A stretch of DNA of 64,000 bases from a virus, in IMG/VR virus record IMGVR_UViG_3300044971_003665, positions 1 through 64,000 of that record; one strand, given 5' to 3'. Below the pieces are notes generated by a model. The model was not told the origin of the DNA and ran no database searches. It saw only the letters and a list, made by a program, of their open reading frames with translations. Of this stretch, positions 7,214 to 38,703 are shown in pieces. Position numbers and translations under genes: made by a program. How positions within the stretch are numbered: position 1 is the first letter of the stretch; every line of letters begins with the position of its first letter.

Positions 7214-7312
7214 ATGATCGCGAGCGTGCAAGCGGCGTGCCTGATCATTGCGTGTGTTTCAGGTGTGGCAATCATCGGCATTGTCTGTTACACGTTCGGC
7301 AAATGGGACTGA
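7214..7312 (+). CDS. Very small membrane peptide
   Basis: A 32-residue open frame starting with ATG, sequence beginning MIASVQAACLIIACVSG and ending TFGKWD. Nearly the whole length is hydrophobic with three Cys, so it is one membrane span. It fills the gap between the lysis cassette and the first giant protein and overlaps that gene's ATG by 10 bases. The tight fit supports a real gene, but codon evidence for so short a frame is weak. Confidence 0.35.
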   Translation: MIASVQAACLIIACVSGVAIIGIVCYTFGKWD

Positions 7313-9225
7313 CACGAAACTCACACGCTTACAGCACAGCGCTCGCGCAGGCGATGCCGCGAGATTTGCGGGTGTTCGGTGCGTCGCCTGAGATGGAGAA
7401 GGAGGCGCAGAAGAAATGGCGGATGCTGAGTCATTTGCCTGAGCTTCTCGGACGCATGGGAATTGAAGCTAAGCCGCATTGGACGAATCTGTCCGCGCTC
7501 AAGCAAGCCGTGGGTACCACGCTGCGCGAGCCGGGCCGGGATTTGATCAGTAGGCGGGTGGCCAACATCGCAGCAGACGCGAAGCAGACTCGCCTCGCTC
7601 CGTTCAAGGCACAGGGCGACAGTGCCTGGCTGGCAGAGCTCGACCGTATGCACGTGCCGTCCACACACGAAAAGCTGTTCCGGCGCCACGGGCAGCCGGT
7701 GCCTGCAGCGGATGGGCGACTCTTTCGCGGCACCGTCGGCGGCGACCCCTGGGGAGGTGGATCTTTTGGCGGCGCGTTCCATTACGCAGCGCCTGACAAA
7801 GCAACAGCGAGCTTGTATGGGCGGCTGCACACGCCGTTTCTGGAGCCCGAGAAGCGGTTAGCGCGGTCGCCGCTGTATTCCGCCAACACGATGGAGGCGA
7901 TCCACCACTACGGGTCGGCGCCAGGACAGAAGGTCTGGAGACCCTGGGGTCCCGAGGAAGCGGTCACAGGGACTGCCCGCAACCGCGCGCGCAACGCCAG
8001 TCAAAACTACTCGCAGATGCTCGGTAATGCGGAGACGACTGTCATGCCGCGGCACAATCCGTTTCTCGGTACCGAGTTGCGTGCGTCCGGCTTCGATCGT
8101 GAACCGCTTTGGCTGTCCAAGCAGCACGGATACTTCCCTGCCGGTCGCGCCTCACGCGCCGCGCAGAACTACAGGAACCAGACAGCTCAGTCGGTGCGGT
8201 GGACGCAGGGCGGTCCGGCTGCAACACAGTTCGAGCAGGTATCGGGACTGAACACGACGCCGTGGACGGACTCGATCAGGCGGAATCCTCGCATGATGCG
8301 CATGCATGCTGAGAACCCGGAGGCTCTCCGGGAACTGATGTCGCGCCGTGCCGATCGTATCCTCGGACCGGATCCCGCGTTGATGTTCAAGTCCGGCAGC
8401 ACGATCGAACGGCTCGGCGGAATCGCGGCGCCGATGGAGAAGTCCGCGACCGCCCTTCTGCGGGCTGCAGGCAGTGGCCTGCGAGCTGCCGGGGCTGGTT
8501 TGGCGCGCGCGACATCCAGACTTCCCAAGAACCACGGTATCCCAAACCAGTTCGTAGGCGCCGTCGAGGATGCGCTTGCGACGAACAGCCGCCTCATCGG
8601 GCGCCGAGGGCTTGGGATGATCAACAGCGTGGATGACGTCACGCGTCGCAATCCGAACCTGCGCTACATGGGGTCTGCCGAAGCCAGGCTGCCCGGTGCC
8701 AAGCAGCACGGCGTCGGTTTGGTCGATTACTTTCAAGCTGGGGTCGACGACGTGGGAACCGCTGGCGGGCGTCAGATGTCCCCGATGGTAATGCGGCAGC
8801 GCTACCGCACCGGGTATGACCCGAGCGGCAAAGCGATATACGACAAAGCCAACGTGGATGTCATGAAGCAGCCGATGTATGTGTCCAGCGGCACTGGCAG
8901 CGGCGCCGAATCAGCGGGTCGCTGGGTGCCGTTCAGTAAGGTGCACGCACCAGCCAACGCAGCGACGGCTGTCAGACGCCTGCACGCGTCCGACCCGCGT
9001 CTTGCCGCCCGGTTGCCGGTCGCTCCGGCGATTCCAGGCGCCTCGAACGATGCGTCGTGGCTAGGAAAACATGTGAACATGGTGGACGCGCAGGGCAATC
9101 TGATCCGTGAGAATCTTGCACACACTCGCGCCGTCGCGGCTGGACATGGAAAATGGTCGAAGAATGCGCTGCCGTCGCACCTGGAGGCTGCACAAGAAGT
9201 CCTGAATCGTTTTTACGGACTGTGA
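7303..9225 (+). CDS. Large virion-type protein A with ADP-ribosyltransferase-like domain
   Basis: 640 residues from the ATG at 7303, whose frame overlaps the small membrane gene. Residues about 139-230 resemble an ADP-ribosyltransferase-like fold: LFRGT (Arg142) followed by GGAFHYAAPDKATASLYG (159 on), the pattern 'lyRGt....g.fhf..d...A..Yg' of phage and toxin families. Peptides of the recurrent hydrophobic-x-K-x-A type occur at Lys33 (MEKEA) and Lys380 (MEKSA); the second separates the ART-like half from a Gly/Ala/Arg-rich C-terminal half. First of four very large genes in a row. The stop overlaps the next start (GTGA). The catalytic Glu of the ART domain is not placed with confidence. Confidence 0.6.
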   Translation: MGLTRNSHAYSTALAQAMPRDLRVFGASPEMEKEAQKKWRMLSHLPELLGRMGIEAKPHWTNLSALKQAVGTTLREPGRDLISRRVANIAADAKQTRLAPFKAQGDSAWLAELDRMHVPSTHEKLFRRHGQPVPAADGRLFRGTVGGDPWGGGSFGGAFHYAAPDKATASLYGRLHTPFLEPEKRLARSPLYSANTMEAIHHYGSAPGQKVWRPWGPEEAVTGTARNRARNASQNYSQMLGNAETTVMPRHNPFLGTELRASGFDREPLWLSKQHGYFPAGRASRAAQNYRNQTAQSVRWTQGGPAATQFEQVSGLNTTPWTDSIRRNPRMMRMHAENPEALRELMSRRADRILGPDPALMFKSGSTIERLGGIAAPMEKSATALLRAAGSGLRAAGAGLARATSRLPKNHGIPNQFVGAVEDALATNSRLIGRRGLGMINSVDDVTRRNPNLRYMGSAEARLPGAKQHGVGLVDYFQAGVDDVGTAGGRQMSPMVMRQRYRTGYDPSGKAIYDKANVDVMKQPMYVSSGTGSGAESAGRWVPFSKVHAPANAATAVRRLHASDPRLAARLPVAPAIPGASNDASWLGKHVNMVDAQGNLIRENLAHTRAVAAGHGKWSKNALPSHLEAAQEVLNRFYGL

Positions 9226-12200
9226 ACAAAACGGCGCATACCAAGTCGGCCAACGTATTTTTGGCGGTGGGCGATCTTCTGCGCACTATGCGCTCTCTGC
9301 GCGGCGTCGGCCTGGGCAAAGTCGAGCATGCCCTAACCAATCCTGTCGCGATGGGGCGCCGAAGCGCCGTTGAAAATATTGGCAAGGCAGTGGCCGCCCC
9401 AGTGCTCGCGCCGGCCCTTGGCGTGATGGGCGTGGCGTCCAAAGTCGATCACGCAGCGAAGGCGCACGACCCGCTGCGTCTGCTGCAGATGCGTTCCCGC
9501 GAGGCGGCGGTCAAAGGCATGAGCAATAGACCCGTGGACCGCCGGCAGTTTGTAACGGACATGATGCGCGGCTTGCTCAACCCAGATGTCCGCCAGGCGG
9601 TCGGAACACTGGGAACCGCAGCTGTGCGCGGCGCGGCGACGCTTGCGGAAAAAATAGCGTCTATGGAGAAGCAGTCCGCTGCGGAACACGATGGTCTCTC
9701 CGTATCTGAGGGCGTCGTCAATCCGCTGCGCATCGGCGCAGACTCGTTCGTCGGCTACAAGGCTTTGAAGGGCGCGGCGCGCACACTGTTGAATCCATCG
9801 GAGATGTATCACGGCACGTCGACCGAACATCTGCCTGGCATCATACGGGACGGTCTAAAGCCGCACAACAACGTAGACAAGTGGGTCGCTTTGAAGGCTG
9901 AAGAAATCGGCAGGCTTCAGGATGCCTCAAAGAGAAACGGCGTCCCTGAAAACCTTATTCAGCGCGACGTGGCGGAAGAGCTGACGAGACTGGAAAAGAT
10001 TAAGCAAAACCTATCAACACCGAAGACATTTCTCTCAAAAGGATTTTTTGGGGGGAAGACAGAGGCGAAGAGCTACGCAGAATCAGCGGCTCATGCTACT
10101 CCCGGAAGTCAAGGTGTCGTTTTGTCAACTACGCTGACACCCGACGAGTTACGGCGCGCAGTCCCGGATGTAATAACGTCACGGCCTGGAGCCTGGAACA
10201 AACCGGACATACATAATTTTTCCGTGGATTGGACGATTCCCAGTCGTCGTGTTTACAAAGGCACACCCAGTTTGTGGGCGCTGATCCGCGGTCGCAGTCC
10301 TGAGATACTGAAGAATTTGAAGGCCAACGGCGCATTCAGAGCAGCATTCGGCCTCGGAGCCCTGGGCGTCGCCGGCCTGGCAGGACTGGATGCCGTCCGC
10401 ACGGGGAAGCGAACGGCGGACAAACTGACACAGGAGAAGTCCGCCGCCAGCCTCGACAGTGAGATTGCGGCTCTACCAGGATTCGACGCCCGCTACGATA
10501 CCGTGGATAAATGGGCAGACGACATCGCCGATTCGGTGAGGACCAAAAGCGCAGCAGCCAAATGCCCAGGATGCGGCAATGAATTGCCCAAGGGCGAGCC
10601 GTTACCAGACGTCGAGATGTGCGAGGTCTGCGAGCGTTACGGACCGCCGAGGACGAAGTCGGCCAACCGTCTGACTGATCTGCTGCGCGCCGGAAAGCTC
10701 GGCAAGGACTCGCTACAAAGACTCGGAATGCCCGAACTTGCTCTGCCTTCGGTTGTGCAGACTTCGCACAACCTGCGTGCGGCTGTGCATCAGAATCTGT
10801 CCCCAGTGATGCAGGATGCGTTCAGTCCGCAAGCGCCGGGACTGTGGAGACTTTACAATGGGGCGCGGAAATACGAACCAGGAATCGGAATTTCTCCTGC
10901 GCAGTTGTTTAAGCTGCAGGAGACGGCAGGCGTCGCGCCCTTGCAAGAGCTTCGGTTTAAGCTGCAAGGAACGCCGCCACATCCTCTGCTGCGCGTAGCA
11001 AACAAGTCGACAAAAGATCTGCGAGATGTGCAGCTTTTACCGCCGAAGATCAAGCTGCTGGCGTCCCGGAAATACGACCAGAGTGGAGGGTGGGCAAGCC
11101 GCGGCAATTTCGACTCTGCGCATTCTTATTTTGAAGGACTTGGACCGCGGCGCATCCATCGCGGTCGGGTGTCTTACAGGGTCGCCGGACCCCGCGCCCG
11201 CGTGGTCGTAAGCGGAGGAGCCATAGACCCTGGAGCGCCGGCGAGACCTGGAATCATGGGAGTTCTCGCGCACGAGCTGGGGCATCAAAAAGAAAATCTG
11301 GAGCCGCAGTTTTCAAACTATCTTCGCCGGCGCCTGTCGGCCATGTTGAGTCCTACTATGGGCCCGGTAATTGGCTCGTTGGATGAAGTCCCTGGAGAAC
11401 TGGTTGGACATCTGAGAGCTACGGGGTTGCCTGCTTCGCTCGGCGGTATGCAGGCTAAGAGGTTACCGATTGCCTACATGCTGGAAAAAGATCGCGAAGG
11501 ATTGACGGCGACGCGTGACTTTCTGCGGCAGCAGTATCCTGGCATGTCGAACGGGTTGCTTGGTCGCGTATTGTCTGCGCGGGCACATGCGGCGGCGAAT
11601 TATGCGGTGCCATTTCAACGTCCGGGGAGTATGCTCAAGTCTGCGGCCATCGCCGCAATCACACCGTTCGAGAAGCTGGCCCGGTATCGTCGGATCGACC
11701 ACGCGCGCCCGAATCCCAGCCAGGCTCAAATCGAGTCTCAAAATTTCAAGATGGGCCACGTGGACTTCCATGGTATCGACATCACGATCGAGAACGAGAA
11801 AGGCAGCATTCGCCGTGGCACCACCAAGGAAGGTAAAAAATGGGAGTCGGTGCTGACGTGCCCCTACGGATACATTCGCTCCGCGGCCGGCGGGAAGTCG
11901 GGCGAGCGCGTGCGACCGAAAGCCATCGACGGGGATCACCTCGACGTGTTCGTCGGTCCCAACAAGGCGAGCGAGCTGGTGGTCGTGATCGATCAGCATC
12001 TCGGGGGTAAATACGACGAGTCGAAATTTTTACTCGGGTGCGACAGCCAGGACGAGGGTGTCCGGTTGTATCGCAGCAACTACCAGCGGGGATGGCCGGA
12101 GATGCCGGCGAGCACGTGCACCTTTGCGCAGTTCAAGGAGTGGCTGAAGGACGGGGACCACAAGAAGCCGTTTGCGGGGCAGATGGTGAAGGCGGCGGCA

Positions 12201-12995
12201 GTCGGCGAGTTTCTGAAGGGGGACAACGAGGGACTGGATTGGCGTTGGGGATTACTCGGCGGTTCGATGGTGCAGGTGCCAGCGGCTGCGGCGAGCCTCG
12301 CCTACGCGACGCGCGTAGCGCCGTGGATTCACGGAGCGGAGAACACACGGGCGGAGCAGAAAATTTTTAATCGTCTGTCCAATCAAGCCGTCAGCAGCGG
12401 AGTCAGGCTGGGGCGTGTCGAACAGCCTCGTTATTCCGCGGCGAATTTCTTTAAGCCAGCGGCGCCAGAGGCATTTTACCACGAACCAAACGGCAGACCA
12501 CAAATTGGCCTGTCCGAACGAATGATGCGCCCGGGTGCGCTGGCGCATGAGCTCGGGCACGCACAAGGTGGGCGCGCGCTATTTCGTGCCAACTTAATCG
12601 GCGCGCGCGGAATGCTGGGACTGGGACAGGCAGGGCTGTTTGCGAAGGACGAGACAACTGGGCGCAACATCGCGCTGGCAGGCACTGCTTTCGGTGGTGC
12701 GACACTGGCGAGTGAGCTGGACGCTGGTCGTCGCGGATACAAGAGTCTTCGCGCGCTCGGCAGTAAGCGCCTCCCGGCGCTGAAATCTTTCGCGGGTCTG
12801 CCTACCTATCTGATGGCTGCTGCGATGCCGCTGGTTGGTCACTACGCCAAAAAATGGATGGGCGGCTACGACAAACCCGCAGCGCCAGCTGGGTCAGCCG
12901 CGACGCCACTTCCTGCTGACCCAGCTGGGTCAGCCGCGACGCCACTTCCTGCTGCGCCGAGCCAGACGGGACAAGCGGCGAGCCGTTTCGGCTGA
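9222..12995 (+). CDS. Giant polyvalent protein B: ART-like, zinc ribbon, two zincins, pyrophosphatase-like
   Basis: 1257 residues from the GTG at 9222, which overlaps the previous stop by 4 bases. In order: N-terminal region; ART-like domain at about 195-400 starting with MYHGTS (His197); zinc ribbon C448-x2-C451 and C467-x2-C470; zincin motif HELGH at 684-688; an inorganic-pyrophosphatase-like domain of the polyvalent-protein type at about 841-980 with DGDHLDVFVG (903 on); second HELGH at 1109-1113; C-terminal Pro/Ala repeat. Hydrophobic or polar-x-K-[SQA]-A peptides lie at Lys8, 150, 406, 442, 479, 806 and 990, mostly between these domains. I infer a packaged polyprotein. Polyvalent proteins are known from phages and conjugative elements as proteins delivered with DNA. 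Confidence 0.65.
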   Translation: MNKTAHTKSANVFLAVGDLLRTMRSLRGVGLGKVEHALTNPVAMGRRSAVENIGKAVAAPVLAPALGVMGVASKVDHAAKAHDPLRLLQMRSREAAVKGMSNRPVDRRQFVTDMMRGLLNPDVRQAVGTLGTAAVRGAATLAEKIASMEKQSAAEHDGLSVSEGVVNPLRIGADSFVGYKALKGAARTLLNPSEMYHGTSTEHLPGIIRDGLKPHNNVDKWVALKAEEIGRLQDASKRNGVPENLIQRDVAEELTRLEKIKQNLSTPKTFLSKGFFGGKTEAKSYAESAAHATPGSQGVVLSTTLTPDELRRAVPDVITSRPGAWNKPDIHNFSVDWTIPSRRVYKGTPSLWALIRGRSPEILKNLKANGAFRAAFGLGALGVAGLAGLDAVRTGKRTADKLTQEKSAASLDSEIAALPGFDARYDTVDKWADDIADSVRTKSAAAKCPGCGNELPKGEPLPDVEMCEVCERYGPPRTKSANRLTDLLRAGKLGKDSLQRLGMPELALPSVVQTSHNLRAAVHQNLSPVMQDAFSPQAPGLWRLYNGARKYEPGIGISPAQLFKLQETAGVAPLQELRFKLQGTPPHPLLRVANKSTKDLRDVQLLPPKIKLLASRKYDQSGGWASRGNFDSAHSYFEGLGPRRIHRGRVSYRVAGPRARVVVSGGAIDPGAPARPGIMGVLAHELGHQKENLEPQFSNYLRRRLSAMLSPTMGPVIGSLDEVPGELVGHLRATGLPASLGGMQAKRLPIAYMLEKDREGLTATRDFLRQQYPGMSNGLLGRVLSARAHAAANYAVPFQRPGSMLKSAAIAAITPFEKLARYRRIDHARPNPSQAQIESQNFKMGHVDFHGIDITIENEKGSIRRGTTKEGKKWESVLTCPYGYIRSAAGGKSGERVRPKAIDGDHLDVFVGPNKASELVVVIDQHLGGKYDESKFLLGCDSQDEGVRLYRSNYQRGWPEMPASTCTFAQFKEWLKDGDHKKPFAGQMVKAAAVGEFLKGDNEGLDWRWGLLGGSMVQVPAAAASLAYATRVAPWIHGAENTRAEQKIFNRLSNQAVSSGVRLGRVEQPRYSAANFFKPAAPEAFYHEPNGRPQIGLSERMMRPGALAHELGHAQGGRALFRANLIGARGMLGLGQAGLFAKDETTGRNIALAGTAFGGATLASELDAGRRGYKSLRALGSKRLPALKSFAGLPTYLMAAAMPLVGHYAKKWMGGYDKPAAPAGSAATPLPADPAGSAATPLPAAPSQTGQAASRFG
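12885..12954 (+). repeat. 36-base tandem repeat in giant protein B
   Basis: Two copies of a 34-base identical segment start at 12885 and 12921, a period of 36 bases that encodes PAGSAATPLPAD twice in the C-terminal tail. The repeat keeps the frame, so copy number can vary without breaking the protein. Confidence 0.85.
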
Positions 12996-14357: not shown

Positions 14358-17300
14358 GTGTCGCAAACTCCCGAATCGCTAGGAACAGGAATCGGCCCGT
14401 TGCTCGCGGACTTTATTCCGCTGATGCCTTCGGGGGCCCGTCGTGCCGGCGCAGCCCAGGTGATGGCTGCGCGGGTGGGTCGCGATCCCTCGGTGCTTGT
14501 CGACAATCCTCGGGTCACGCAGCTGCTGGCCATGGGCCTCGGTGCCGTCGGCGGGGCCTACACGGCAGACCAGTCCAAACCGGTGCGCGCCGCGGCAATG
14601 CTCGGCCCGCTCGCGATCGTGCAGTTGCTGCGACACCTGGAGCTGCGGAGCATCCAGAAGTCCTACGACACGGAGAAGCGCAAGCGGCTGCGCGAGCTGG
14701 ACGACAAGGCGCTGCTGGACAACCCGGGCTGGTTCGGCGGCAGCAACCGGCTCGGCGCGGTCAACGCCTACGAGACGATGCGGGACCGCAAATACAAGGG
14801 CTACAGTTCGATCGCCGAAGCGGGCGACGCGTTTCATCTCGCCGCGTCCGGACTGCACCCGCTCCTGGGCGTGTCGATGTCAGGGATTGTGAGCGCACTG
14901 GACAACGAGGAGGCACAGGCCCGCCGCCAGATGCACAAGAAGGCGGTGCTTGGATTCAAGGCGCTCACCGGACACACCGGACCGATCAAGGCATTCCTTC
15001 GGCAGTTGCGAAACGAAGGCGCAGCGGTGCGGCGGGTGATTCCGGAAACGGTCGGAGCGCGACTGCCGAACACCGGCGCGAAGCTTCCGGTTGGAACGTC
15101 CGGCTATTCGCGAGGATCCTGGGACCCCACGCAGCAGGCGTTCCGGGACACTGTTCTCGACGTCGGAAAAGGTCGACCAAGAAACACGATGACCATGCAG
15201 CCAGACGCCGGCGCCTTCCGCTTCACATACGGGCAAGGGACGCCTGGCGGCACCAACCCGTCGCCAATCGCTTCGCTCCTCCATGAGGGCGGACACCACA
15301 TGAACCACCGGGCGATGCGCCGCGCTGGAATCGGTGACAGCATGGGCGGACACGAAGTGCCGGGGCTGCCGCACATGGACAAGGTGATGAACGAACTGGG
15401 GGCCAACAACTCAGCCCTGCAATTTCTGCAGCAAGCAGGAGCGAGGCCGGAAGCGATGGCATACTTCAAGGGAGCCAGAGCGCCATCGTTTTCGTCATAC
15501 GTCCGCAATCTTCCGCAGACTGGCAACCCGGTGCAGCAGCGTATCCTGGCCGCCGGACCGCACGGCTTCACGCCGGGATACAAGGGGCTGCCGGATTTGT
15601 ACAAGCAGGCCGAATTCGCCGAACAGCGCAACTCCCCGGTCATCCCGCTCACTATCGCTGCTGCGCTGCTTGGATCGCTCGGACGCAGCGCCTCGCAGAA
15701 CTGGGCGGTGCGCGAGGTGTCGAATACTCCGCCGCTTGGTGTCGACAAGTGGCCAGGCACGATCGCAAGCATCTCAGGTACCGAGCCGCTGATGCTGGCG
15801 TCGAACGCCGATGGGACGGCCAACGCATTTTTTTACAAGCCCAACACCGAGAAGGAAGGGCTGCAGTTCATGCGGCAATTCTCCGGGTTGCGGGATGTCA
15901 CGCCGCGCACCCCGACGACGAAGGGGGAATACGGACGCACCATGGAGAAGCTGCAGCGGCTGATGCGCAGCGGAGTCATGGTGGCGAACGAGCGCGCCGG
16001 AGCGCCGGTCATCGGACACGAGGCAGGGCATGCGAAGATCGAGGAGACCCCGGGCATGCTGCGCTTCCTACAGCGGCACATCTACCCTCACCAGGGATGG
16101 GTGGCGCCGATGGCGGCCGCTGGTTCGATGGCGGCCGGCCTGGCGAGCGGCAGCACGCTGAAGGGCGGGTTGTATGGCACCGGCATCGGCCTGCTGTCCA
16201 GTCTGGGAACGGTCGGCCCCGAAGCGGGCGCCAGCTACCACGCGCTGCGGCACCTGAAGGGTCTTGGCGACGGGTCGCTGAGCGCCGAGGGGAAGAAGGA
16301 CCTGCTGAGTGCGCTGTCGACCTACCTTGCGGGCGGGGTGTTGCCCAGCGTGCTGTCGGGCATGGCAGGCGGCTGGATCTCCGGCCGGCGACGCCAGAAA
16401 GATGAGGAGGAAGGCGTCGAGAAATCCGCCGCTTACGTCCCCGTGGAAAACGCATTCGAAAAAGCCGCGACAGCGTGGCAGGAGATGCACAAGGCAGGAA
16501 CTGTCGGAATGCTGGAGCCGGTAAGGCGTCCGCGGACTGTTACGGGTAAAATTCCCATGAACTGGAACGCCAAGCCACGGCCTACCGCGCCGGGAAAGCC
16601 GCCAGGTGCCGAGGTAAACCTGATGGATTCAAAATCGACTGTAAATCCAGCCGATTTCAAAACGCCATATTACGGGGATCAATTTCCGGCGCAGCTGGAA
16701 CAGGCAGCGCAATACAATCTGAAGAACAAGCTGCCGAACACGACGGACGGCTGGCAGCGTCCGGTGACCGTGGTCACTAGCAATCCGACATCAAACAGTC
16801 AATACGCTCCGTTTGTGCAGCAAGGCATACACGGCAGCGCTGTTTTCATGCCTGCGGATGCGGGTAAATTTTTACGCGACGAGTCGCCAGAGATGGCGGC
16901 AGCAGGGGCCAAGCCGGCGGACGTGCTGGCCCACGAAGTCAACCACGCTGCGGGTGATAACTGGGCGGTTGGTGAGCATGACGACGCTTATTTTGTAGGA
17001 CCAGCCAAAGACCCGGGATACGTGGAGCGTCAGAACTTTATGGACAAGCTTCCGCACGATTTGAAGCCCGGTGAGCATCGCGGTTACATGTCGACGATCC
17101 AGGCGCAGCAGTTCAAGGATACAGGTAGTCGAATCACCAGTCCGGAGGCTTACGACAAATGGTTGGAATCCATGAATGTGCATCACGCAGACCCGGCGGT
17201 GTTCGAGAATTCGATTAAATCGGTGCCGGTAGATGCGCAGCGTATGCTGCGCGGGATGCGTGATCCAGCCGCCGATCCTGCCTACCTGAAGTCGCTGAAG

Positions 17301-17939
17301 CAGTGGCAGCGTCGCGTCATTCCAGGCATCGTGCAGCAGGCTGCCCCCGTGCAGGAGAAGTTCGCCAAGCAGGCGAGCGCCAAGCGTCTGCAGAGCATCG
17401 CACAGGCGTTGGAGAATATCCGGAATGTTCGGAAGTCAGGCGTGGGCGGCGCAGAGTCGTTCGCTGCGGCATTCGACTCCACGCCCGAAGTTCTGCGTCG
17501 ATACTTCTTTAAGCATCCAGATGTCATGCGGCTGGGAATAAAGTCGCGCATGCCGTCGCAGAAGATCCAGGACATGCTCAAAGGGCTGGTCACGCCACCG
17601 GCAATCCCGGCGCTGCCTCCGCCTCCGCCTCCCGCGGCGCCGATACAGGGAATGCTGGACCTGTTCAAGCAGGGCCAGGCGCATCCGGCGCTCCCGGCGC
17701 TGAGAGCCGCCAAGGAGCACTCGGACGCCGGCGACTACTCGATGAAGCACAAGCTGATTCGGCAGAACATGCGTCGGCACGCGGAGGACTGGTCGATCGA
17801 CTCGGACGACGGCAAAGGCATCGTGGGTGTGACGCACATCCCGACCGGCTTCCGGCTGCACATGCCGAAAGGAGTTGTCGATCCCGACGTGCTCAGGTAT
17901 CATAATGCCGCGCAGATGCCGCACAACCGAAACCGATGA
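14358..17939 (+). CDS. Giant polyvalent protein C with three zincin motifs
   Basis: 1193 residues from the GTG at 14358, chosen because a promoter ends 6 bases before it. Three separate HExxH motifs are visible: HEGGH at 309-313, HEAGH at 554-558 and HEVNH at 859-863. Peptides of the recurrent K-x-A type fall between them: MHKKA (Lys194/195), LYKQA (Lys416), VEKSA (Lys689), FEKAA (Lys702) and FAKQA (Lys1004). Each zincin therefore sits in its own segment of 220-300 residues. The N-terminal 190 residues include a Gly/Ala stretch that may touch membranes; a C-terminal part has PPPPPPAAP and a final charged domain. I infer a polyprotein of three metallopeptidase-like units. Additional zinc ligands were not identified. 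Confidence 0.6.
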   Translation: MSQTPESLGTGIGPLLADFIPLMPSGARRAGAAQVMAARVGRDPSVLVDNPRVTQLLAMGLGAVGGAYTADQSKPVRAAAMLGPLAIVQLLRHLELRSIQKSYDTEKRKRLRELDDKALLDNPGWFGGSNRLGAVNAYETMRDRKYKGYSSIAEAGDAFHLAASGLHPLLGVSMSGIVSALDNEEAQARRQMHKKAVLGFKALTGHTGPIKAFLRQLRNEGAAVRRVIPETVGARLPNTGAKLPVGTSGYSRGSWDPTQQAFRDTVLDVGKGRPRNTMTMQPDAGAFRFTYGQGTPGGTNPSPIASLLHEGGHHMNHRAMRRAGIGDSMGGHEVPGLPHMDKVMNELGANNSALQFLQQAGARPEAMAYFKGARAPSFSSYVRNLPQTGNPVQQRILAAGPHGFTPGYKGLPDLYKQAEFAEQRNSPVIPLTIAAALLGSLGRSASQNWAVREVSNTPPLGVDKWPGTIASISGTEPLMLASNADGTANAFFYKPNTEKEGLQFMRQFSGLRDVTPRTPTTKGEYGRTMEKLQRLMRSGVMVANERAGAPVIGHEAGHAKIEETPGMLRFLQRHIYPHQGWVAPMAAAGSMAAGLASGSTLKGGLYGTGIGLLSSLGTVGPEAGASYHALRHLKGLGDGSLSAEGKKDLLSALSTYLAGGVLPSVLSGMAGGWISGRRRQKDEEEGVEKSAAYVPVENAFEKAATAWQEMHKAGTVGMLEPVRRPRTVTGKIPMNWNAKPRPTAPGKPPGAEVNLMDSKSTVNPADFKTPYYGDQFPAQLEQAAQYNLKNKLPNTTDGWQRPVTVVTSNPTSNSQYAPFVQQGIHGSAVFMPADAGKFLRDESPEMAAAGAKPADVLAHEVNHAAGDNWAVGEHDDAYFVGPAKDPGYVERQNFMDKLPHDLKPGEHRGYMSTIQAQQFKDTGSRITSPEAYDKWLESMNVHHADPAVFENSIKSVPVDAQRMLRGMRDPAADPAYLKSLKQWQRRVIPGIVQQAAPVQEKFAKQASAKRLQSIAQALENIRNVRKSGVGGAESFAAAFDSTPEVLRRYFFKHPDVMRLGIKSRMPSQKIQDMLKGLVTPPAIPALPPPPPPAAPIQGMLDLFKQGQAHPALPALRAAKEHSDAGDYSMKHKLIRQNMRRHAEDWSIDSDDGKGIVGVTHIPTGFRLHMPKGVVDPDVLRYHNAAQMPHNRNR

Positions 17940-20473
17940 GCAAGCAAGCTTCAACCTCCGAGAATCCATGGCCGTCCGGAATCGCTGGCGCTGGCATGCT
18001 CGGGCTCGGTGGCGCGCTGGGTCGTTCTGGATTGGCGGACCTGAACAACCGCAACGTGCTGCTGACTTACGGCGCCGCAGCTCCTATGGGAGGCGGGCAC
18101 AAAGAGCCGGCGGCGCAGATCCGCCGCATCCTGGAGGAACTGAAGGCGCAAAATCGCGACAACTTTTTGGGACGAATGAACGTCAACGACGCCCCGGTGA
18201 TTTCCTACGAGGGCAAGATATCAGACGAGGCGGCGAAGGCCATGAAAGGGAAGCGGTTCTTGACTGGCGTCGACACGGGATGGGGGCTGCTGGATCCGGA
18301 ACGCGCACACGATGTCACGCCGACGCGCGCGAGCTGGATGGATCGCATGCGCGGGGAGAATGTGCGACAGCAGGATCCTCATTTTCGGCAGCGGTTCGAA
18401 AACTTTCTGCAATTCCAACCGGATGGACGCAACGACGCGACGGGCTACATGGCGACTGGGGATGCGCGCCGGATTTCCGGGCTGCGCGACACGCACGCGG
18501 CGACTTACGGCAACTTCGACCCAGGGCCGTCGCATGTGCTGTCCGGCGGCAAGCTGCACTACATGGGGCGCGCACACCCGCTGGTGGAGACGAAAAATCT
18601 CAGCCCGCTCATGGACCGCGACGCCTACTCGAAATTTCTGGCGCAGCACATGACGCAACACGGCGGGTTCCAGGGGATCACGCCCGACACCTTCCGCGGC
18701 AAGAAGATCATCACAGTCTCCGGCGCGACCCGCGGCGATACTGTCGGCGCCCGCGCGCGGTGGGTTGCCGAAGCGCTGAAGGCCAAAGGTCACAACCTCG
18801 ACGATTACGTCATTCTCGGAGTCGGAGGCCAGGGTCCAAATCTGGCGCGCGAAACGGCGATCGCACACGCAGGCGGACCGCAGAAGAACATTTTCATCGT
18901 TCCAGGTACGACTGCAAAGACTGGAGGGCCGTCCGGGTTCAACTCGCTGATCGGTAACTCCGACTTGCACGTCATGGGGATGGGCGGGTCTAGTCCGTTC
19001 GAAGCTCTGGCTCACGGCGGCGCACCGATCGCGCTGATCGACGATGAGCAGGTTTTCAAGGCCCGCCAAAATGTTCCGTGGTCGGAGTCGGATCTGATCG
19101 CAGACCGAGGCATTCATGGGTTCGAGAATAAACTGCGGGCGACGATCAACCAGGGACTTCCCGCGGACCAGCATCTGGCTGAATCGGCGGCAAGGAACTG
19201 GATGAACCCTTCGGTGTTCCAGGACGCAAAAGGGGAGAGCGTCGTCCGCCGCGGACTGGATGGTATTCGTGACTATCTCGAACTGCGCGGTGTAAAGACG
19301 CTGCAGTCTGGCGATTACGACGGGTTCGCCAATCTGCTGAAAGAACTGCCGCAGCTCCAAGGCGGACGCGCGCAGCAGGCCGCGCTGACGCTGCAGGACA
19401 TTCAAGGCGGTCGCGGCATGTTCAAGTCGCTGCTGGAGGGCCAGCTGCGCGCCGGCCGGAGCGCGGCGCTGCGGCATGGCGCCGGTAAACTGGCACTCGG
19501 CGCCGGCGCGCTGGCAGGTGGTGGAGCATTGCTGTCGAAACTGTTCGGAGGCAACCAGACGGCGCAGGCGCCCATTGACTTGCGGCTGAACAAGGCGGCT
19601 GCGACGAATACTCGAGACAACGTCGCCATCGGCGCAGGTGGCGGCGCCGCCGTGCTCGGCGCAGGCATCTACGACACTGGACGTTCTTTTGCGAAAATTC
19701 GACCGCTGGCTCGTGACTACGTCAACGCGACGCGACGTTACGCGCAGAAATATCCGGATCATCTTTGGACTGCCGACGCGCCCAGAATCCGGGAATACCT
19801 GGGCATCGTGGACAAGTATGCTGACGCCGCGAAGGCCATGTCGAACTTGCGGATCATGGGCGTCCCGGCGCACGTGCTTACTTCCAGGTTTCCGCTGACG
19901 TCGTTGTCGGATGACTGGAAGACTACGCTGAAGGTTGGACTCGGTATGGGAGACATAGTGGATCAGAAGAAGCGCTGGGCAATCATGGACAACCAGACGC
20001 ACTACGCTGAAGGGGCAAAGACGCCTCGTGCGCTGCTGTCGCGCGAGATGTTGTCGCACGCCGCAGATCCGCAACTGCGCCTGACTCCGGAAGTATCGAG
20101 AGTCATGGGGGCCGACGAGGCGCTGCGTATTGCCCGCGCGCCGGAAGACGTGTCTATGCTTCAGCGGTTCGAGCCTTATCTCAAGCGACTGGAAGAGGGT
20201 AAAGTCCAAGGGAGCACTTTCGATAAGCTGGCTCCGTTTTTCTACCGCGAGCGGCGGATGATGCGCGGCGTCAATGCCGACGATGCTCCGTTTATGGCGG
20301 GCAAAGGGCTGCGGAAATTTCTGCAGGCAAACAGCGTCAGAGGTTACGGCTCGCTGCTTTCGGCGGTCAGCACGAAGCTGTCGCCCAAACTGAAAACAGT
20401 CGGGGCCCTGCTTGGACTCGCCGGCTTGGGGACTGCCGGCGCTGGTATCTCCAGCAAGCTGAACAAGGACTGA
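17936..20473 (+). CDS. Giant protein D with GT-B glycosyltransferase-like domain
   Basis: 845 residues, ATGA overlap with protein C. The start carries MSKQAS, another K-x-A peptide (Lys3). Residues about 35-420 look like a GT-B glycosyltransferase of the MurG/diacylglycerol-glucosyltransferase type: MGGGHKEPAAQIRRIL (51 on) matches the 'GGGH..aA..i...L' loop, and MGMGGSSPFEALAHGGAP (347 on, with Glu356) matches the nucleotide-sugar site 'GG.s..EAl..G.P'. NLKxA-type LNKAA (Lys553) separates this from a second segment, 554-845, of unknown function that contains a Gly/Ala hydrophobic patch (VAIGAGGGAAVLGAGI) and ends with a hydrophobic Gly/Leu-rich helix. Sugar donor and target are unknown. Confidence 0.55.
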   Translation: MSKQASTSENPWPSGIAGAGMLGLGGALGRSGLADLNNRNVLLTYGAAAPMGGGHKEPAAQIRRILEELKAQNRDNFLGRMNVNDAPVISYEGKISDEAAKAMKGKRFLTGVDTGWGLLDPERAHDVTPTRASWMDRMRGENVRQQDPHFRQRFENFLQFQPDGRNDATGYMATGDARRISGLRDTHAATYGNFDPGPSHVLSGGKLHYMGRAHPLVETKNLSPLMDRDAYSKFLAQHMTQHGGFQGITPDTFRGKKIITVSGATRGDTVGARARWVAEALKAKGHNLDDYVILGVGGQGPNLARETAIAHAGGPQKNIFIVPGTTAKTGGPSGFNSLIGNSDLHVMGMGGSSPFEALAHGGAPIALIDDEQVFKARQNVPWSESDLIADRGIHGFENKLRATINQGLPADQHLAESAARNWMNPSVFQDAKGESVVRRGLDGIRDYLELRGVKTLQSGDYDGFANLLKELPQLQGGRAQQAALTLQDIQGGRGMFKSLLEGQLRAGRSAALRHGAGKLALGAGALAGGGALLSKLFGGNQTAQAPIDLRLNKAAATNTRDNVAIGAGGGAAVLGAGIYDTGRSFAKIRPLARDYVNATRRYAQKYPDHLWTADAPRIREYLGIVDKYADAAKAMSNLRIMGVPAHVLTSRFPLTSLSDDWKTTLKVGLGMGDIVDQKKRWAIMDNQTHYAEGAKTPRALLSREMLSHAADPQLRLTPEVSRVMGADEALRIARAPEDVSMLQRFEPYLKRLEEGKVQGSTFDKLAPFFYRERRMMRGVNADDAPFMAGKGLRKFLQANSVRGYGSLLSAVSTKLSPKLKTVGALLGLAGLGTAGAGISSKLNKD

Positions 20474-20565: not shown

Positions 20566-20892
20566 ATGATTAGTTCCATCATACGCGCCGGAGGTCTGCT
20601 CCTCGGCGCTCCCATCGCTGCTGCCGGTCACGCTCTTGAAGCGGTCGGGGTCCTGAACTTCACAGGATGGCAAAAGCAAATGAAGGACTTCGGCGCGGAG
20701 ATGATCTCCGGCGCCGATCACATCGCGAAGCAACGCGACGAGCGCGAGGCGCTCGTCGACGCCATCGGAGATCTGCAGCAAGCGGACCCCGACGCGGTGG
20801 CGGCTGCAGCGCTCGCGCTCGTCGCGATCAAGGGGCAGATGCAGACGAACGCGGAGGCAGCCGCTGCCCCCGATCCGGCAGTGGTCCCGTAA
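20566..20892 (+). CDS. Hypothetical small protein with hydrophobic N-terminus
   Basis: 108 residues. The start MISSIIRAGGLLLGAPIAAAG is amphipathic to hydrophobic and could insert in a membrane; the rest is helical and acidic (DFGAEMISGADHIAKQRDER, then ADPDAVAAAALALVAIKG). The leader is long, A/C-rich and lacks a Shine-Dalgarno sequence. A strong terminator follows 11 bases after the stop, so this gene appears to be a monocistronic, possibly abundant product. No family is recognised. Confidence 0.6.
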   Translation: MISSIIRAGGLLLGAPIAAAGHALEAVGVLNFTGWQKQMKDFGAEMISGADHIAKQRDEREALVDAIGDLQQADPDAVAAAALALVAIKGQMQTNAEAAAAPDPAVVP

Positions 20893-20902
20893 AAATCATC
20901 GA

Positions 20903-20945
20903 CACCGGCGCGGGGGCAACTCCGCGCCGGTGCTCCGATTTTTTA
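20903..20945 (+). terminator. Rho-independent terminator
   Basis: CACCGGCGCGG (20903-20913) and CCGCGCCGGTG (20922-20932) form a perfect 11-base stem with an 8-base loop. A run of T (GATTTTTTAC) follows within 6 bases. Confidence 0.85.
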
Positions 20946-20951
20946 CTTCGA

Positions 20952-20980
20952 TTGACGAGCGCCGCTGATTCTGCCAAACT
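20952..20980 (+). promoter_or_regulatory. Promoter with leaderless start for the Met/Pro/Gly-rich protein
   Basis: TTGACG at 20952-20957, 17-base spacer, CAAACT at 20975-20980, then 7 bases to the ATG at 20988. The -10 is weak but its place matches the other leaderless starts in this phage. Confidence 0.5.
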
Positions 20981-20987
20981 CCCACTC

Positions 20988-21629
20988 ATGTCCGCAGATC
21001 TCGCCAGCATGAAACAAAGCCTCGCCCGTTTGCGCCAGGAGCGGGCCGACCTCGAAACCATTCGCAAAGAAGCATTCATGGCCGCGCCGCCGATGCCTGG
21101 CGGCGGCATGCCTCCAGGCATGGACCCGTCAATGATGCAGGGCGGCATGCCTCCGCAGGGTATGCCAGTCGATCCGAACACCGGCATGCCGATGTACCCG
21201 TCGATGATGCAAGGTGGTATGCCTCCGCAGGGGATGCCTCCAGGAATGGACCCATCGATGATGCAAGGTGGTATGCCTCCGCAGGGTATGCCTCCGCAGG
21301 GGATGCCTCCAGGAATGGACCCGTCAATGATGCAGGGCGGCATGCCTCCGCAGGGTATGCCAGTCGATCCGAACACCGGCATGCCGATGGACCCTTCGAT
21401 GATGCAGGGCGGGATGCCTCCGCAGCAGCAGCCTCCTCCGGCGTCTCCGATTACGCCCGAGATGCTCGAAGAGATCATCGGCGTGATCGAGCAACTGGCG
21501 GCCGGCAGCGAGCAACACGAGAAAGAGATGCAGGGAATGAAGCAGCAGCTGGAAGATGTCATGGCGAACTTCGACGAACTCGAGCAGCGCCTCGCGCAGA
21601 TGTTCAGCGGCCCGCAGCAGGGAATGTAA
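20988..21629 (+). CDS. Met/Pro/Gly-rich repeat protein with flanking coiled coils
   Basis: 213 residues from the ATG at 20988. An N-terminal charged helix (MKQSLARLRQERADLETI) ends in RKEAF, a K-x-A peptide (Lys27). Residues about 32-150 are a low-complexity repeat of GGMPPQGMP and GMDPSMMQ units. The C-terminal part (ITPEMLEEIIGVIEQLAAGS to QRLAQMFSG) is again a coiled coil. Met-rich disordered regions flanked by coils suit a scaffold- or adaptor-like virion protein. The longer upstream frame overlaps the preceding gene and the terminator and is rejected. Confidence 0.6.
   Translation: MSADLASMKQSLARLRQERADLETIRKEAFMAAPPMPGGGMPPGMDPSMMQGGMPPQGMPVDPNTGMPMYPSMMQGGMPPQGMPPGMDPSMMQGGMPPQGMPPQGMPPGMDPSMMQGGMPPQGMPVDPNTGMPMDPSMMQGGMPPQQQPPPASPITPEMLEEIIGVIEQLAAGSEQHEKEMQGMKQQLEDVMANFDELEQRLAQMFSGPQQGM
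21140..21420 (+). repeat. Coding tandem repeat (GMPP units)
   Basis: Repeated segments such as ATGATGCAGGGCGGCATG and CCTCCGCAGGGTATGCC recur with small changes. They include a near-identical pair of longer blocks that both run into a VDPNTGMPM-coding sequence (from about 21141 and 21333). The frame is kept throughout. Confidence 0.8.
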
Positions 21630-22708: not shown

Positions 22709-24562
22709 ATGCGCGCTGTCGATTTCGCCGTTTCACGAATCCTACCTCCGGAGATGCAGAAGGACACCTACGACCTGGGGAAGCGCGGCATGTCGGAGAT
22801 CATGGCCGAGGTCGCCGCGCACCACCCGTATGAATTCCCGCGCATCGTAAAACAACTGGGCGACCTTGGACGTCGCGCGAGCTGGCGGCAGGGCTACACC
22901 ACCGGCCCCTCTGATACGCGGCAGGTCATCGACACCTCATCCTACTACGCCAAGATGGACGCGGAGCTTGCTGGACTGCGCAAGCAGAAGCTGCCGACCG
23001 AGGACTTCGAAGCGCAGCGCGGCGAGATCCTCACCCGCTATTCTGACCTGATCGAGAAGGACACAATGACGGCGGCGATGAAGAGTCGCAACGCGTTCGC
23101 GCTGGCCGTGGCCTCCGGCGCGCGCGGCAAGGCCAGCAATCTCAAGGCAATCCTTTCCACGCCGGGTGTGTTCCAGGACGCCAAAGGACGCGTCATCCCG
23201 CTGTTCGTGCGCAGCAGTTACGGCGACGGCGTCCGGCCCGCGGAGACGCTGGCCGGCACCTACGGCGCGCGCGCATCGGTCGTATCGACGAAAAAAGCGA
23301 CCGCAAAGGGCGGCGACCTGCTCAAGATTACCACACAGGCAGGTCTGGATTTTAACATCACCACGCAGGACTGCGGCGTGACGAACGGACTGGCCGCCGA
23401 GGCTACCGACGACGACCTGACAGGACGCGTGCTGGCTCGCGGCGTCGGTGACATCCCGGGCGGCACTGTCATCGACAAGCACCTGCTCGCGCAGCTGCGG
23501 CGGCAGAAGAAACCGATCATGGTGCGCAGCGCGCTGACTTGCCGCGCGCCGCACGGGCTGTGCGCCAAGTGTGCCGGCGTCAAAGCCGACGGACAGTTCC
23601 CGTCCATCGGTGAGTCTGCTGTCGTCACCGCCTCCGCCGCAATCAACGAGCCCATCGTACAGGGGGCCTTAAATGTAAAACACGAAGCGGGCGTAGCCAA
23701 GGGAAGGAAGTCATTCTCCGGCCTCAACTACATCACGCAGTTCCTGTCGATCCCGGAGGAGTTCAAAGACCGCGCGACCGTTGCGGAGAACGAGGGGACC
23801 GTGGACAAGATCGAAGACGCTCCGCAGGGCGGCACGTTTATCAACGTGAACGGCACGCAGCATTTTGCCCTGCCTGGATTTCAGCCGACTGTGAAAGTGG
23901 GACAGCGCGTGGAGGCCGGCGACACCCTGTCTGACGGGCTGGTGAATCCTGCCGACATCGTCCGGCTGCGCGGGCTCGGCGAAGGGCGCAAGTATTACGC
24001 GACGCGCCTATCCCAAATGCTGCGTGATTCCGGACAGAGTCCAGATGCCAGGAATGTGGAGATGATCACACGCGCCGCGTTGGACAACTATCTCATCGAG
24101 GACCCCGACGAGGACTCGCCGTGGCTGCCGGACGACCTGGTGCACGAGAGCGAGTTCCTCGCCAAGTATCGTCCGCCGGAGGACACCGCGGAGATGCCGG
24201 CGGCGAAGGCGGTCGGCAAATTTCTGCAGGCGCCGGCGCTGCACTACACGGTGGGCACAAAGCTGACGCCGAGCATGGCCAAGAACCTGGAGAGCGCCGG
24301 CGTGACCAAGGTGCCGGTGTCGTCGCAACAGCCGTGGTTCCGCCCGGAGATGCAGCGGCTGCGCGTCGCCTCGCACGCGTCCGATGACTGGCTCGCGTCG
24401 CTGGGCACGTCTTACCTGTCCAGTCAGCTGCGCGGCTCGCTGGAGCGCGGCGATGAGACGAACGTGGCCGAGAACTATCACTTCGGGCCCAGACTTGCGT
24501 TCGGAGCAGACGCAGGCAAGGGCGGCTTCGGCGAACACGTGCAGACGACTGGCAAATTCTGA
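22709..24562 (+). CDS. RNA polymerase beta-prime-like protein, C-terminal half only
   Basis: 617 residues. The central part aligns by eye with bacterial beta-prime: SNLKAILSTPGVFQDAKG and GTYGARASV (rim-helix region), then QDCGVTNGL with Cys222, then LTCRAPHGLCAKC with Cys278, Cys285 and Cys288. The C-x6-C-x2-C spacing equals that of E. coli Cys888/895/898, with Cys814 matched by Cys222. The trigger-loop segment is altered: INEPIVQGALNVKHEAG against GEPGTQLTMRTFHIGG, keeping the His but not the Arg. The NADFDGD catalytic motif is absent because the N-terminal half is missing, and no beta subunit is in the window. It may be one piece of a split virion polymerase or a structural relic. Confidence 0.75.
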   Translation: MRAVDFAVSRILPPEMQKDTYDLGKRGMSEIMAEVAAHHPYEFPRIVKQLGDLGRRASWRQGYTTGPSDTRQVIDTSSYYAKMDAELAGLRKQKLPTEDFEAQRGEILTRYSDLIEKDTMTAAMKSRNAFALAVASGARGKASNLKAILSTPGVFQDAKGRVIPLFVRSSYGDGVRPAETLAGTYGARASVVSTKKATAKGGDLLKITTQAGLDFNITTQDCGVTNGLAAEATDDDLTGRVLARGVGDIPGGTVIDKHLLAQLRRQKKPIMVRSALTCRAPHGLCAKCAGVKADGQFPSIGESAVVTASAAINEPIVQGALNVKHEAGVAKGRKSFSGLNYITQFLSIPEEFKDRATVAENEGTVDKIEDAPQGGTFINVNGTQHFALPGFQPTVKVGQRVEAGDTLSDGLVNPADIVRLRGLGEGRKYYATRLSQMLRDSGQSPDARNVEMITRAALDNYLIEDPDEDSPWLPDDLVHESEFLAKYRPPEDTAEMPAAKAVGKFLQAPALHYTVGTKLTPSMAKNLESAGVTKVPVSSQQPWFRPEMQRLRVASHASDDWLASLGTSYLSSQLRGSLERGDETNVAENYHFGPRLAFGADAGKGGFGEHVQTTGKF

Positions 24563-24574
24563 GCGTAATTGATA

Positions 24575-24603
24575 TTGCCTGCGTGTTTGGTTTCGCGTAG
24601 AAT
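24575..24603 (+). promoter_or_regulatory. Promoter with leaderless start for the 24.6 kb gene
   Basis: TTGCCT at 24575-24580, 17-base spacer, TAGAAT at 24598-24603, then 7 bases to the ATG at 24611. One of the best examples of the leaderless arrangement here. Confidence 0.65.
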
Positions 24604-24610
24604 GCCCGGC

Positions 24611-26272: not shown

Positions 26273-26283
26273 GCCATCCGGGT

Positions 26284-27327: not shown

Positions 27328-27375
27328 TCAACGTCAACCTTCCCTTCGCCGCAAAACCGACTACCATCCATGATC

Positions 27376-30638: not shown

Positions 30639-30642
30639 CACC

Positions 30643-33987: not shown

Positions 33988-35454
33988 ATGCACATCGAAC
34001 GCGAACTCGAAAAATCATTCGCCACGGACGACCACGCGGAGCTGCTGCGGGCGGCTGACGGCAAGGCTTTCACATTCTTCGAGCGCGACCGGGGCCGCAG
34101 TGGATTTACGAAGTCGGCATCGGACGTCATCTCGCGCCTGGATCTGCAGGAGCACATGCCTCCGGATGATCAGTTTGGCGTGCATCTGATCACGATGGGC
34201 GAGGAAGAAACTTTTGGGCCGAACCGCAACGGCGACTCAGCCAGCCGGCGATCGCTGGACCGTCACCACGGCACGTTCGAAAAATTTGGATGCGTATTCC
34301 GCGAACACAAAAATCGCAACCCCGTGACTCAGGGCATCGGCACCGTCCGACTGGCCCGGGTGAATCCGAAGATGCACCGCGGCGAGTTGATCGCCTGGGT
34401 GGAAAAGGACAAGGCGCCGGACATGTATAAGAAGGCGAAGGCCGGCGAGGAGCTGTCTTGGTCGATGTCCATGCGCCTCCCGCATGACGAGTGCTCGTGC
34501 TGCAAGAAAAAGAGCAAGCGCACAACGGACTACTGCAGCCATCTGAAGAACAACATGCTGCGGTTCGTGGATGGGTTTGAGAAGTATGCCTACGCCCGCA
34601 ACGAGGACGACGTGAAGTTCTTCGACATCAGCGAAGTCAAACGACGCGCTGACCGCATCGCCACTTTCCTGAGCTACACATTTCCGGAGGGCGAGATGGC
34701 GAAGGCTGCGTCGGGCGACGCGATCATTACCGGCGCACAATGGGCCGCGTTTCAGTTCGGCAATGCGCGCGTCGTGCCGTTCAGCGAGTGGGAAAATCTC
34801 ACACTGCAGAAGCTCGCCGCGGCTGATGAATTCGTGAAGCGTGCTGACGCGGTGACGCGGGAAGTGCTGTGCAAGCTGGCGCCGCAAGATCTTTCAGCCG
34901 ACCAGATAGACACACTGGCCGAGGTGGACTTCCGCAACGCCGGAGGCGAGCTGGCCAAGCGCGCCATGGTCATCAATTTTTACACGTTCGCTTCGCTCGT
35001 GACCGGACAGAAGATAGCCGACATCGAGAAGAACGCGGCACTGTGCGACGCTGCTGAAATCAAGCTGCCTTCGCTGCTGGCGGGGATGATGCACAGCGGC
35101 GGCTGCGCGTGCGGCGAGGATGTCGCTGACGCTGTGGCGCCGGACGAAACAGGCTGCTCCTTCTCGCCCGGCAAGGACAACATCGATCGTCTCATGGACG
35201 AGGTTGGCGGCGACCTTGGAATGGGCACAGGTCAGGCGTCTGATCGTGCGATGCGCGTGGTGATCATCAAGAGCGGCAGCATCGCTGCGCGTCCGGGCCT
35301 CAAAAAAAATATCGACGACTACTACGGCGGTCTGATAGAAGCTTACGGACACTACTTAGTGAAAGCCGCACACCAGATCAAAGACCTGCCGGACGTCAAC
35401 GCCGGCACACTGTTTCGAGGGCTCGCCGCGAGTTTGATGATTCGTCGCGCATAA
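33988..35454 (+). CDS. Prohead maturation protease (serine, herpesvirus-protease-like fold)
   Basis: 488 residues. Residues about 45-200 match the phage prohead protease pattern: GPNRNGDSASR, then GTFEKFGCVFREHKN with candidate catalytic His107, then LSWSMSMRLP with candidate Ser159 or Ser161. The His-Ser distance of about 52 residues is like T4 gp21. A Cys-rich insertion follows (DECSCCKKKSK and DYCSHL), probably binding zinc, as in some phage relatives. The C-terminal 280 residues are an additional region, with K-x-A sites (FTKSA Lys42, MAKAA, FVKRA, LVKAA) that may be self-cleavage points. It lies directly before scaffold and capsid genes. It should cut scaffold, capsid and packaged proteins during head maturation. 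Confidence 0.75.
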   Translation: MHIERELEKSFATDDHAELLRAADGKAFTFFERDRGRSGFTKSASDVISRLDLQEHMPPDDQFGVHLITMGEEETFGPNRNGDSASRRSLDRHHGTFEKFGCVFREHKNRNPVTQGIGTVRLARVNPKMHRGELIAWVEKDKAPDMYKKAKAGEELSWSMSMRLPHDECSCCKKKSKRTTDYCSHLKNNMLRFVDGFEKYAYARNEDDVKFFDISEVKRRADRIATFLSYTFPEGEMAKAASGDAIITGAQWAAFQFGNARVVPFSEWENLTLQKLAAADEFVKRADAVTREVLCKLAPQDLSADQIDTLAEVDFRNAGGELAKRAMVINFYTFASLVTGQKIADIEKNAALCDAAEIKLPSLLAGMMHSGGCACGEDVADAVAPDETGCSFSPGKDNIDRLMDEVGGDLGMGTGQASDRAMRVVIIKSGSIAARPGLKKNIDDYYGGLIEAYGHYLVKAAHQIKDLPDVNAGTLFRGLAASLMIRRA

Positions 35455-37734: not shown

Positions 37735-38703
37735 ATGAACGAACAAGCTGCAAAAGACCTGCTCATCAAGAAGCAACTCATCGACGACGTCCTCTCATCG
37801 GACGACGGCGTTGTGAAGAAAGCATCCACCGCGACCTCGAAGGCCACCCGGACACAAATCCGGGAGGAGGGCTTCCAGCGCGCGATTCTGTCATTCGACA
37901 TGATTACCAACGAGGACCTCGATTATTTCGGGGACTCGGAACTCCCCGGAGTTTGGTACGAACTCGAACCGGACTCGCCGCCTGCTCGCGTCATCCCCTA
38001 CAACGACACCCCGAACTCCTTCTCGTATCGCGCGGAGAAGTATGTGGTGCTCCTGTCGGTGATCACGACCGAGGAAGCGACGAAGAACATCAACCAGCTC
38101 CGGACCTACAAGACGGACCTTCGGCAGATCGTCAACGACAACATGCTGCGTGACATCCACACGGCGGAAGACACTTCGTTCCTTACGGAGATCGACCGCA
38201 TCGTGGGTGGTGCCACGGCCTACGCGACGGTGGAAAGTGCCTCTCCGGGCGCCTACCAGAACGTCACGATGACCAGCGCTACCTTCTCCCGCAAGGGCCT
38301 GAAGCGCGCCGTCAGCTACCTCATTGAGCGCCAGCTGCCGATCGGTGTCGTCCTCGTCAATCAACGCACTGCCAACGAGTTTCTCGGTTGGGAGCGTTTG
38401 GAGATGGGCGGCGACTTGTCGCAGGACGTGGCCCGCAAGGGTCTCAAGGCCCTCGAGAAGTTCGAGATGTTCGGCGTCCCGTTCGTCAGCACCATCAAGA
38501 ACGGACTCGTCGCAAACGGCGTCATGTATCAGTTCGCGCCCAAGGAATTCCTTGGCAACGCGCTGATGCTCGAAGACATCACCGTCACCATCAAGAAGGA
38601 GTACGACATCATCCGCATGCGTGCCCAGGAGCAGGTCGGTCTCACGATCGGCAACACCCTCGGCGTGCAGAAGCTGACCTACACGATGACTGGCATCGCG
38701 TAA
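37735..38703 (+). CDS. Major capsid protein, HK97-fold type
   Basis: 322 residues. Features of an HK97-fold capsid protein: an N-terminal helical arm, YNDTPNSFSYRAEKYVVLLS with surrounding strands (E-loop/P-domain region), a long helix INQLRTYKTDLRQIVNDNML, then VVLVNQRTANEFLGWERLEM and the C-terminal QEQVGLTIGNTLGVQKLTYT. Near the start VVKKAST (Lys28/29) is a K-x-A peptide where the prohead protease could remove an N-terminal arm of about 29 residues. A/C-rich leader before the ATG and a strong terminator after the stop suit an abundant protein. Confidence 0.75.
   Translation: MNEQAAKDLLIKKQLIDDVLSSDDGVVKKASTATSKATRTQIREEGFQRAILSFDMITNEDLDYFGDSELPGVWYELEPDSPPARVIPYNDTPNSFSYRAEKYVVLLSVITTEEATKNINQLRTYKTDLRQIVNDNMLRDIHTAEDTSFLTEIDRIVGGATAYATVESASPGAYQNVTMTSATFSRKGLKRAVSYLIERQLPIGVVLVNQRTANEFLGWERLEMGGDLSQDVARKGLKALEKFEMFGVPFVSTIKNGLVANGVMYQFAPKEFLGNALMLEDITVTIKKEYDIIRMRAQEQVGLTIGNTLGVQKLTYTMTGIA

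Follow-up and report, generated by a model that had tools for sequence, protein, structure and literature searches.

The open reading frame at 14358-17939 of the window, the 64,000-nucleotide stretch analysed here as part of an IMG/VR viral record of 184,016 bases, probably encodes a polyprotein (P0001) that is packaged in the capsid of a large myovirus-like phage and cut there by the head protease at K-x-A sites, the pieces probably being ejected. The stronger finding is the K-x-A linker rather than the three zincins. The initial annotation saw the K-x-A peptides but missed their recurrence in the capsid protein, the head protease and many head proteins.

14358..17939, + strand: polyprotein P0001, 1193 aa, with three HExxH modules (ORF translation, motif scan, homologue L014:14936-17845)
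15282..15296, + strand: HEGGH motif, residues 309-313 (motif scan)
16017..16031, + strand: HEAGH motif, residues 554-558 (motif scan)
16932..16946, + strand: HEVNH motif, residues 859-863 (motif scan)

The frame translates without a stop into 1193 residues, and the motif spacings of 245 and 305 given in the initial annotation are exact. Residue-shuffled versions of P0001 contain a mean of 0.048 HExxH, and three motifs occur in 0/100,000 shuffles; a chance origin of the three is excluded. The homologue in the nearest relative, L014:14936-17845, starts 13 residues farther upstream, and because these extra residues match a GTG at 14319, the true start of P0001 may be 14319 and not 14358. No direct relatives of P0001 were found by a single-sequence query against phages and viral contigs, and a scan of genome contigs returned a single MAG contig, without a clue to the host.

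K-x-A occurs in P0001 at residues 194, 371, 416, 689, 702, 852, 1001 and 1004, and the sites at 194, 416, 689/702 and 1001/1004 bracket the three HExxH motifs, in keeping with the earlier description of these peptides as separators. Sites were scored with a position matrix (PSSM) trained on distant relatives only and then run on the window proteins. Posteriors are 0.00 at residues 371 and 852, which lie inside zincin 1 and zincin 3 respectively, and at the remaining sites are as follows.

14937..14945, + strand: K-x-A junction KKA, residues 194-196; posterior 0.24, weak, at an exact module boundary in the relative
15603..15611, + strand: K-x-A junction KQA, residues 416-418; posterior 0.99
16422..16430, + strand: K-x-A junction EKSA, residues 689-691; posterior 0.98
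16461..16469, + strand: K-x-A junction FEKAA, residues 702-704; posterior 0.73
17358..17375, + strand: double K-x-A junction KFA/KQA, residues 1001-1006; posteriors 0.45 (1001) and 0.98 (1004)

The predicted pieces are residues 1-196, 197-418, 419-691, 692-704, 705-1006 and 1007-1193, with one HExxH in each of the three large middle pieces. The head module contains 2.5 sites with a score above 2 per 1000 aa; shuffles contain 0.12 and the rest of the genome 0.3-0.6. Counted against a packaged polyprotein are the low score of site 194, although it is an exact module boundary, a C-terminal module border at 1097 that carries no K-x-A (the nearest is 92 aa off), and the lack of an obvious N-terminal tag of P0001's own before residue 194.

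The modules delimited by these sites can be compared with those of G003 (IMGVR_UViG_3300042888_002988), the nearest relative with the region, whose capsid protein is 83% identical.

14358..14945, + strand: N-terminal module, residues 1-196, without zincin; 77% identical in G003 (blastp), there fused directly to zincin 2
14946..15611, + strand: zincin-1 module, residues 197-418, with HEGGH 309-313; candidate third ligand E346 (NELGANN); located in a different polyprotein in G003
15612..16430, + strand: zincin-2 module, residues 419-691, with HEAGH 554-558; candidate third ligand E622 (PEAGASYHA); hydrophobic stretches
16470..17375, + strand: zincin-3 candidate module, residues 705-1006, with HEVNH 859-863; no relatives found
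17376..17936, + strand: C-terminal module, residues 1007-1193; residues 1097-1184 are 74% identical in G003 (blastp)

Three metallopeptidases had been proposed, with a third zinc ligand to be sought downstream of each motif, and this holds in part. In zincin 1 the H, E and H together with the downstream E346 are kept at ~43% identity (two sequences, G003 included). Zincin 2 belongs to a family of four sequences, two of which, from other contigs, are stand-alone proteins beginning with NKYLEKIA; HExGHAK and the later E...A.YHA signature are kept down to ~21% identity, and E622 is invariant in all four. Because H, E, H and the downstream E are conserved in relatives, zincins 1 and 2 are likely separate metallopeptidase modules, probably of the HExxH+E type. 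For zincin 3 no relatives were found, and its status as a metallopeptidase module is doubtful. A metzincin assignment for zincin 3 (HEVNHAAGDNW) was rejected by eye, the third His/Asp being absent at the expected place. Structure predictions are of low confidence (mean pLDDT 34 for zincins 1 and 2, 41 for zincin 3), and in the poor zincin 3 model the motif sits in a helix. Zincin 1, compared as a profile with the zincin 2 family, shows no significant similarity to it (probability 0.9%), and common descent of the zincin modules is thus not shown.

A reading in which the HExxH motifs arose by chance or are inactive, the modules being structural filler, is very improbable. In its favour, no Pfam or NCBIfam metallopeptidase family matches the zincin modules above the curated cut-off, and zincin 3 stands without relatives. 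The only matches, all sub-threshold, are M48 (0.19) on zincin 2 and, for the zincin 2 family, Zn_peptidase_2 (0.088) and M57 (0.14). Profiles built from the alignments of zincins 1 and 2 gave nothing useful against PDB sequences. Such a reading is opposed both by the shuffling result and by the retention of H, E, H and a downstream E at the identities given above.

The K-x-A tripeptide is found in the capsid protein and in the predicted head protease of the same genome.

37735..38703, + strand: major capsid protein (phrog_2522, 4.3e-6)
37816..37824, + strand: K-x-A of the major capsid protein, KKA, residues 28-30; invariant in 59/59 sequences
33988..35454, + strand: predicted head maturation protease (phrog_18299, 1.6e-4); H107 and S159 invariant
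34111..34119, + strand: N-terminal K-x-A of the protease, KSA, residues 42-44; nearly invariant
34702..34710, + strand: C-terminal K-x-A of the protease, KAA, residues 239-241; nearly invariant

With the capsid protein as query, an alignment-based scan yielded 57 loci; Salmonella phage Arash and Vibrio phage D69 are among the cultured relatives. The 59 capsid proteins that reach the region come from the window, Arash, D69 and IMG/VR contigs; all of them, at identities down to 22%, have K28 and A30, with a variable residue in between. A homologue of the protease is present in 50 loci, the window included; H107 and S159, invariant in 48/48, are the putative catalytic His and Ser of a serine protease. 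The profile match to phrog_18299 is weak for the window protein and better for homologues (6e-7). When the protease is compared with Vibrio phage D69 by tblastn, the aligned residues, 38-245, are just the core flanked by K-x-A.

Enrichment extends over the head-module genes at 7237-42600, where EK-x-A is seen 21 times against 3.3 expected (6.3x over shuffles) and K[SQ]A 25 times against 6.9 (3.6x); no comparable excess of either is present in the other genome stretches tested (L002-L004, outside the head module). Across relatives K-x-A and EK-x-A are enriched and the reversed A-x-K is not. The site consensus is (L/M)-(E/V)-K-(Q/E/S)-A-(S/A). By this distribution and conservation, the K-x-A sites of the capsid protein, the head protease and many head proteins look like maturation cleavage sites.

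Prohead proteases of T4, phiKZ and SPN3US cut C-terminal to Glu (A-x-E in SPN3US) and also cut themselves (PMC5694885, PMC10052503). The sites described here resemble theirs in the P3-x-P1 tripeptide with a variable middle and in the protease's own motif lying beside the catalytic core, and, as in T4, short N-terminal tags occur on internal proteins (PMC5694885, PMC10052503). The difference lies in the residues, since the conserved motif here is Lys plus Ala (K-x-A) and not a Glu-specific site (PMC5694885). Nearly all reported cuts in SPN3US remove N-terminal propeptides, whereas here the sites also part enzyme modules (PMC5694885, PMC10052503). No K-x-A prohead motif was found in the literature searched, a coverage outside which many subscription papers fall. 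K-x-A could instead be a mere capsid-targeting or linker peptide, P0001 working as one long chain in the manner of the N4 virion RNA polymerase, which has a zincin and is packaged without cleavage (PMC5512222). This is distinctly unlikely, as the invariant capsid K28 and A30 around a variable middle, and the near-invariant pairs flanking the protease core, fit cleavage better.

Tags ending in K-x-A are also seen on small proteins of the relatives. Stand-alone zincins in two other loci, L035 and L083, begin MQNKYLEKIAS and MNKYLEKIAE, a tag that several further head proteins there carry as well; the four small head proteins at L035:3703-8794, which include a zincin, have NKYLEK(I/V)AS as their common N-terminus. 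This sequence is likely a tag that targets proteins to the capsid and ends in the cut site. Within 24569-42600 the window counterparts of the NKYLEK tag read TPFAxL...K-x-A, e.g. MIMTPFALLEKSA at 27370 and ITPFAKLELMPKSA at 24569, and are sometimes repeated within a protein.

Additional enzyme modules between K-x-A sites lie upstream of P0001, making the picture larger than that of the initial annotation.

9153..12995, + strand: neighbour polyprotein, 1280 aa; HELGH at 707 and 1132, InPase at 857-999, K-x-A junctions between
11721..12149, + strand: PF18823 InPase domain (3.7e-35), between K-x-A 829/841 and 1013
7237..9225, + strand: third polyprotein, 662 aa; in G003 its residues 53-391 follow zincin 2 of the P0001 homologue

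The neighbour adds two HELGH motifs around an InPase, a domain typical of polyvalent proteins, and this context supports the earlier comparison of P0001 with that class. Several unrelated catalytic domains in one polypeptide are found in 9153-12995 (InPase and two HELGH) and in the G003 protein g7441 (zincin 1 and InPase); P0001 alone shows only zincin motifs. Its three zincins had been called unusual, which overstates the case: polyvalent proteins carry one to five zincin-like MPTase domains per protein, several of them in one phage polypeptide (Iyer et al. 2017, PMC5512222), so several zincins in one chain are not new by themselves. P0001 is like those proteins in joining several enzyme modules, several HExxH included, in one chain with an InPase nearby, and unlike their model, where zincins do the cutting, in that the linkers match predicted head-maturation sites and modules swap there (PMC5512222). 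Autoproteolysis, with the embedded zincins cutting at the K-x-A linkers, is the published model for polyvalent MPTases (PMC5512222), and the zincins of P0001 do adjoin such linkers. It is nevertheless quite improbable here, because relatives such as Arash, for which no HExxH zincin turned up near the head genes, still have an invariant K-x-A in both capsid protein and protease. In most relatives the alignments of zincins 1 and 2 matched nothing, and a stand-alone zincin bears the tag itself, both of which likewise speak against autoproteolysis.

Comparison of the window with G003 shows that modules have been swapped between polyproteins almost exactly at K-x-A sites. The G003 homologue of P0001 runs from the N-terminal module to zincin 2, then to a module from the window's 7237-9225 ORF, which replaces zincin 3, and then to the C-terminal module; zincin 1 is in another polyprotein (g7441), together with InPase. 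On the window side 7/8 module junctions fall within 15 aa of a K-x-A (1.6 expected, p=6e-5) and on the G003 side 6/8 (p=0.002), the two sides not being independent.

The zincins could alternatively stay in the head and serve there as auxiliary peptidases for maturation or scaffold clearing, instead of being ejected as effectors. The stand-alone zincin of L035 lies directly upstream of the head protease, and for some jumbo phages a role in maturation has been suggested for a conserved phage zincin (PMC7824862). This alternative is nonetheless rather unlikely, in view of the high variability of the zincins, unlike an essential maturation enzyme (in the nearest large relative no match was found to the two of 9153-12995 or to zincin 3), and of their travelling with InPase, a conflict-type domain.

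Other genes of the window offer further observations. Residues 214-250 of the 9153-12995 protein (YHGTSTEHLPGIIRDGLKPH) weakly match RNA 2'-phosphotransferase (0.018) and are possibly an ADP-ribosyltransferase-like module. An RNA polymerase beta-prime C-terminal part (PF04998, 2.2e-6; phrog_25354, 1.2e-36) is encoded at 22709-24562, inside the head module, and is possibly a split or virion RNA polymerase; RNA polymerase subunit genes likewise adjoin the head genes in Arash. The 845 aa protein at 17936-20473 starts MSKQAS, a high-scoring K-x-A site, and by eye is like a GT-B glycosyltransferase, without a Pfam or PHROG match. TFNDSSY-like repeats and a Bactofilin match (1.3e-13) are present in the 1056 aa protein at 498-3668, and MPPQGMPPGMDPSMMQGG repeats in that at 20667-21629, the protein and its repeats being retained in G003 (L015:1138-1695). 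The window end, 60828-63635, has lower G+C and by eye encodes glycosyltransferase-like proteins and a left-handed beta-helix acyltransferase-like protein.

The mechanism favoured for P0001 would begin with its entry into the prohead as a single chain. The head maturation protease (33988-35454), rather than P0001's own zincins, would then cut it after K-x-A, freeing inside the capsid the N-terminal module, two or three separate zincin metallopeptidases and the C-terminal module. The freed modules would probably be ejected into the host with the DNA, along with InPase and other modules of the neighbour polyproteins. The predicted packaging, cutting (with the cut placed after the Ala) and ejection lean on what the sequences show (the motifs, the conservation and enrichment of K-x-A, the placement of sites between modules and the module exchange) and also on the biology of T4 and P1. 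In P1, DarB is packaged via an N-terminal signal and DarA is trimmed by the prohead protease Pro and ejected with the DNA (PMC9024508, PMC12810830). DarA and DarB are likewise large internal proteins, in P1 anti-defence, head-packaged and DNA-ejected; unlike P0001, neither a three-zincin chain nor serial inter-module sites are reported for them in the accessible portions of these sources (PMC9024508, PMC12810830). If the chain is cut after packaging, its modules would be delivered in equal amounts, as the initial annotation suggested. The least supported step is the last, in which the zincins may act on host proteins.

Slightly favoured is a wider reading, in which the head protease of a family of large phages cuts after K-x-A and not after Glu, and the same signal serves as a cassette border between ready-made effector modules, several zincins included. 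Strung together in polyproteins, these modules would be exchanged between genes at the cut sites, enter the head as part of such chains and be set free in the capsid for ejection. If true, the specificity of capsid proteases would extend beyond Glu, and an alternative to autoproteolysis would be available for how polyvalent proteins are cut. Short tags such as NKYLEKIA-S would become candidates for loading proteins into capsids. The cargo of these phages would then be readable from sequence, each stretch between K-x-A sites corresponding to one product that enters the head.
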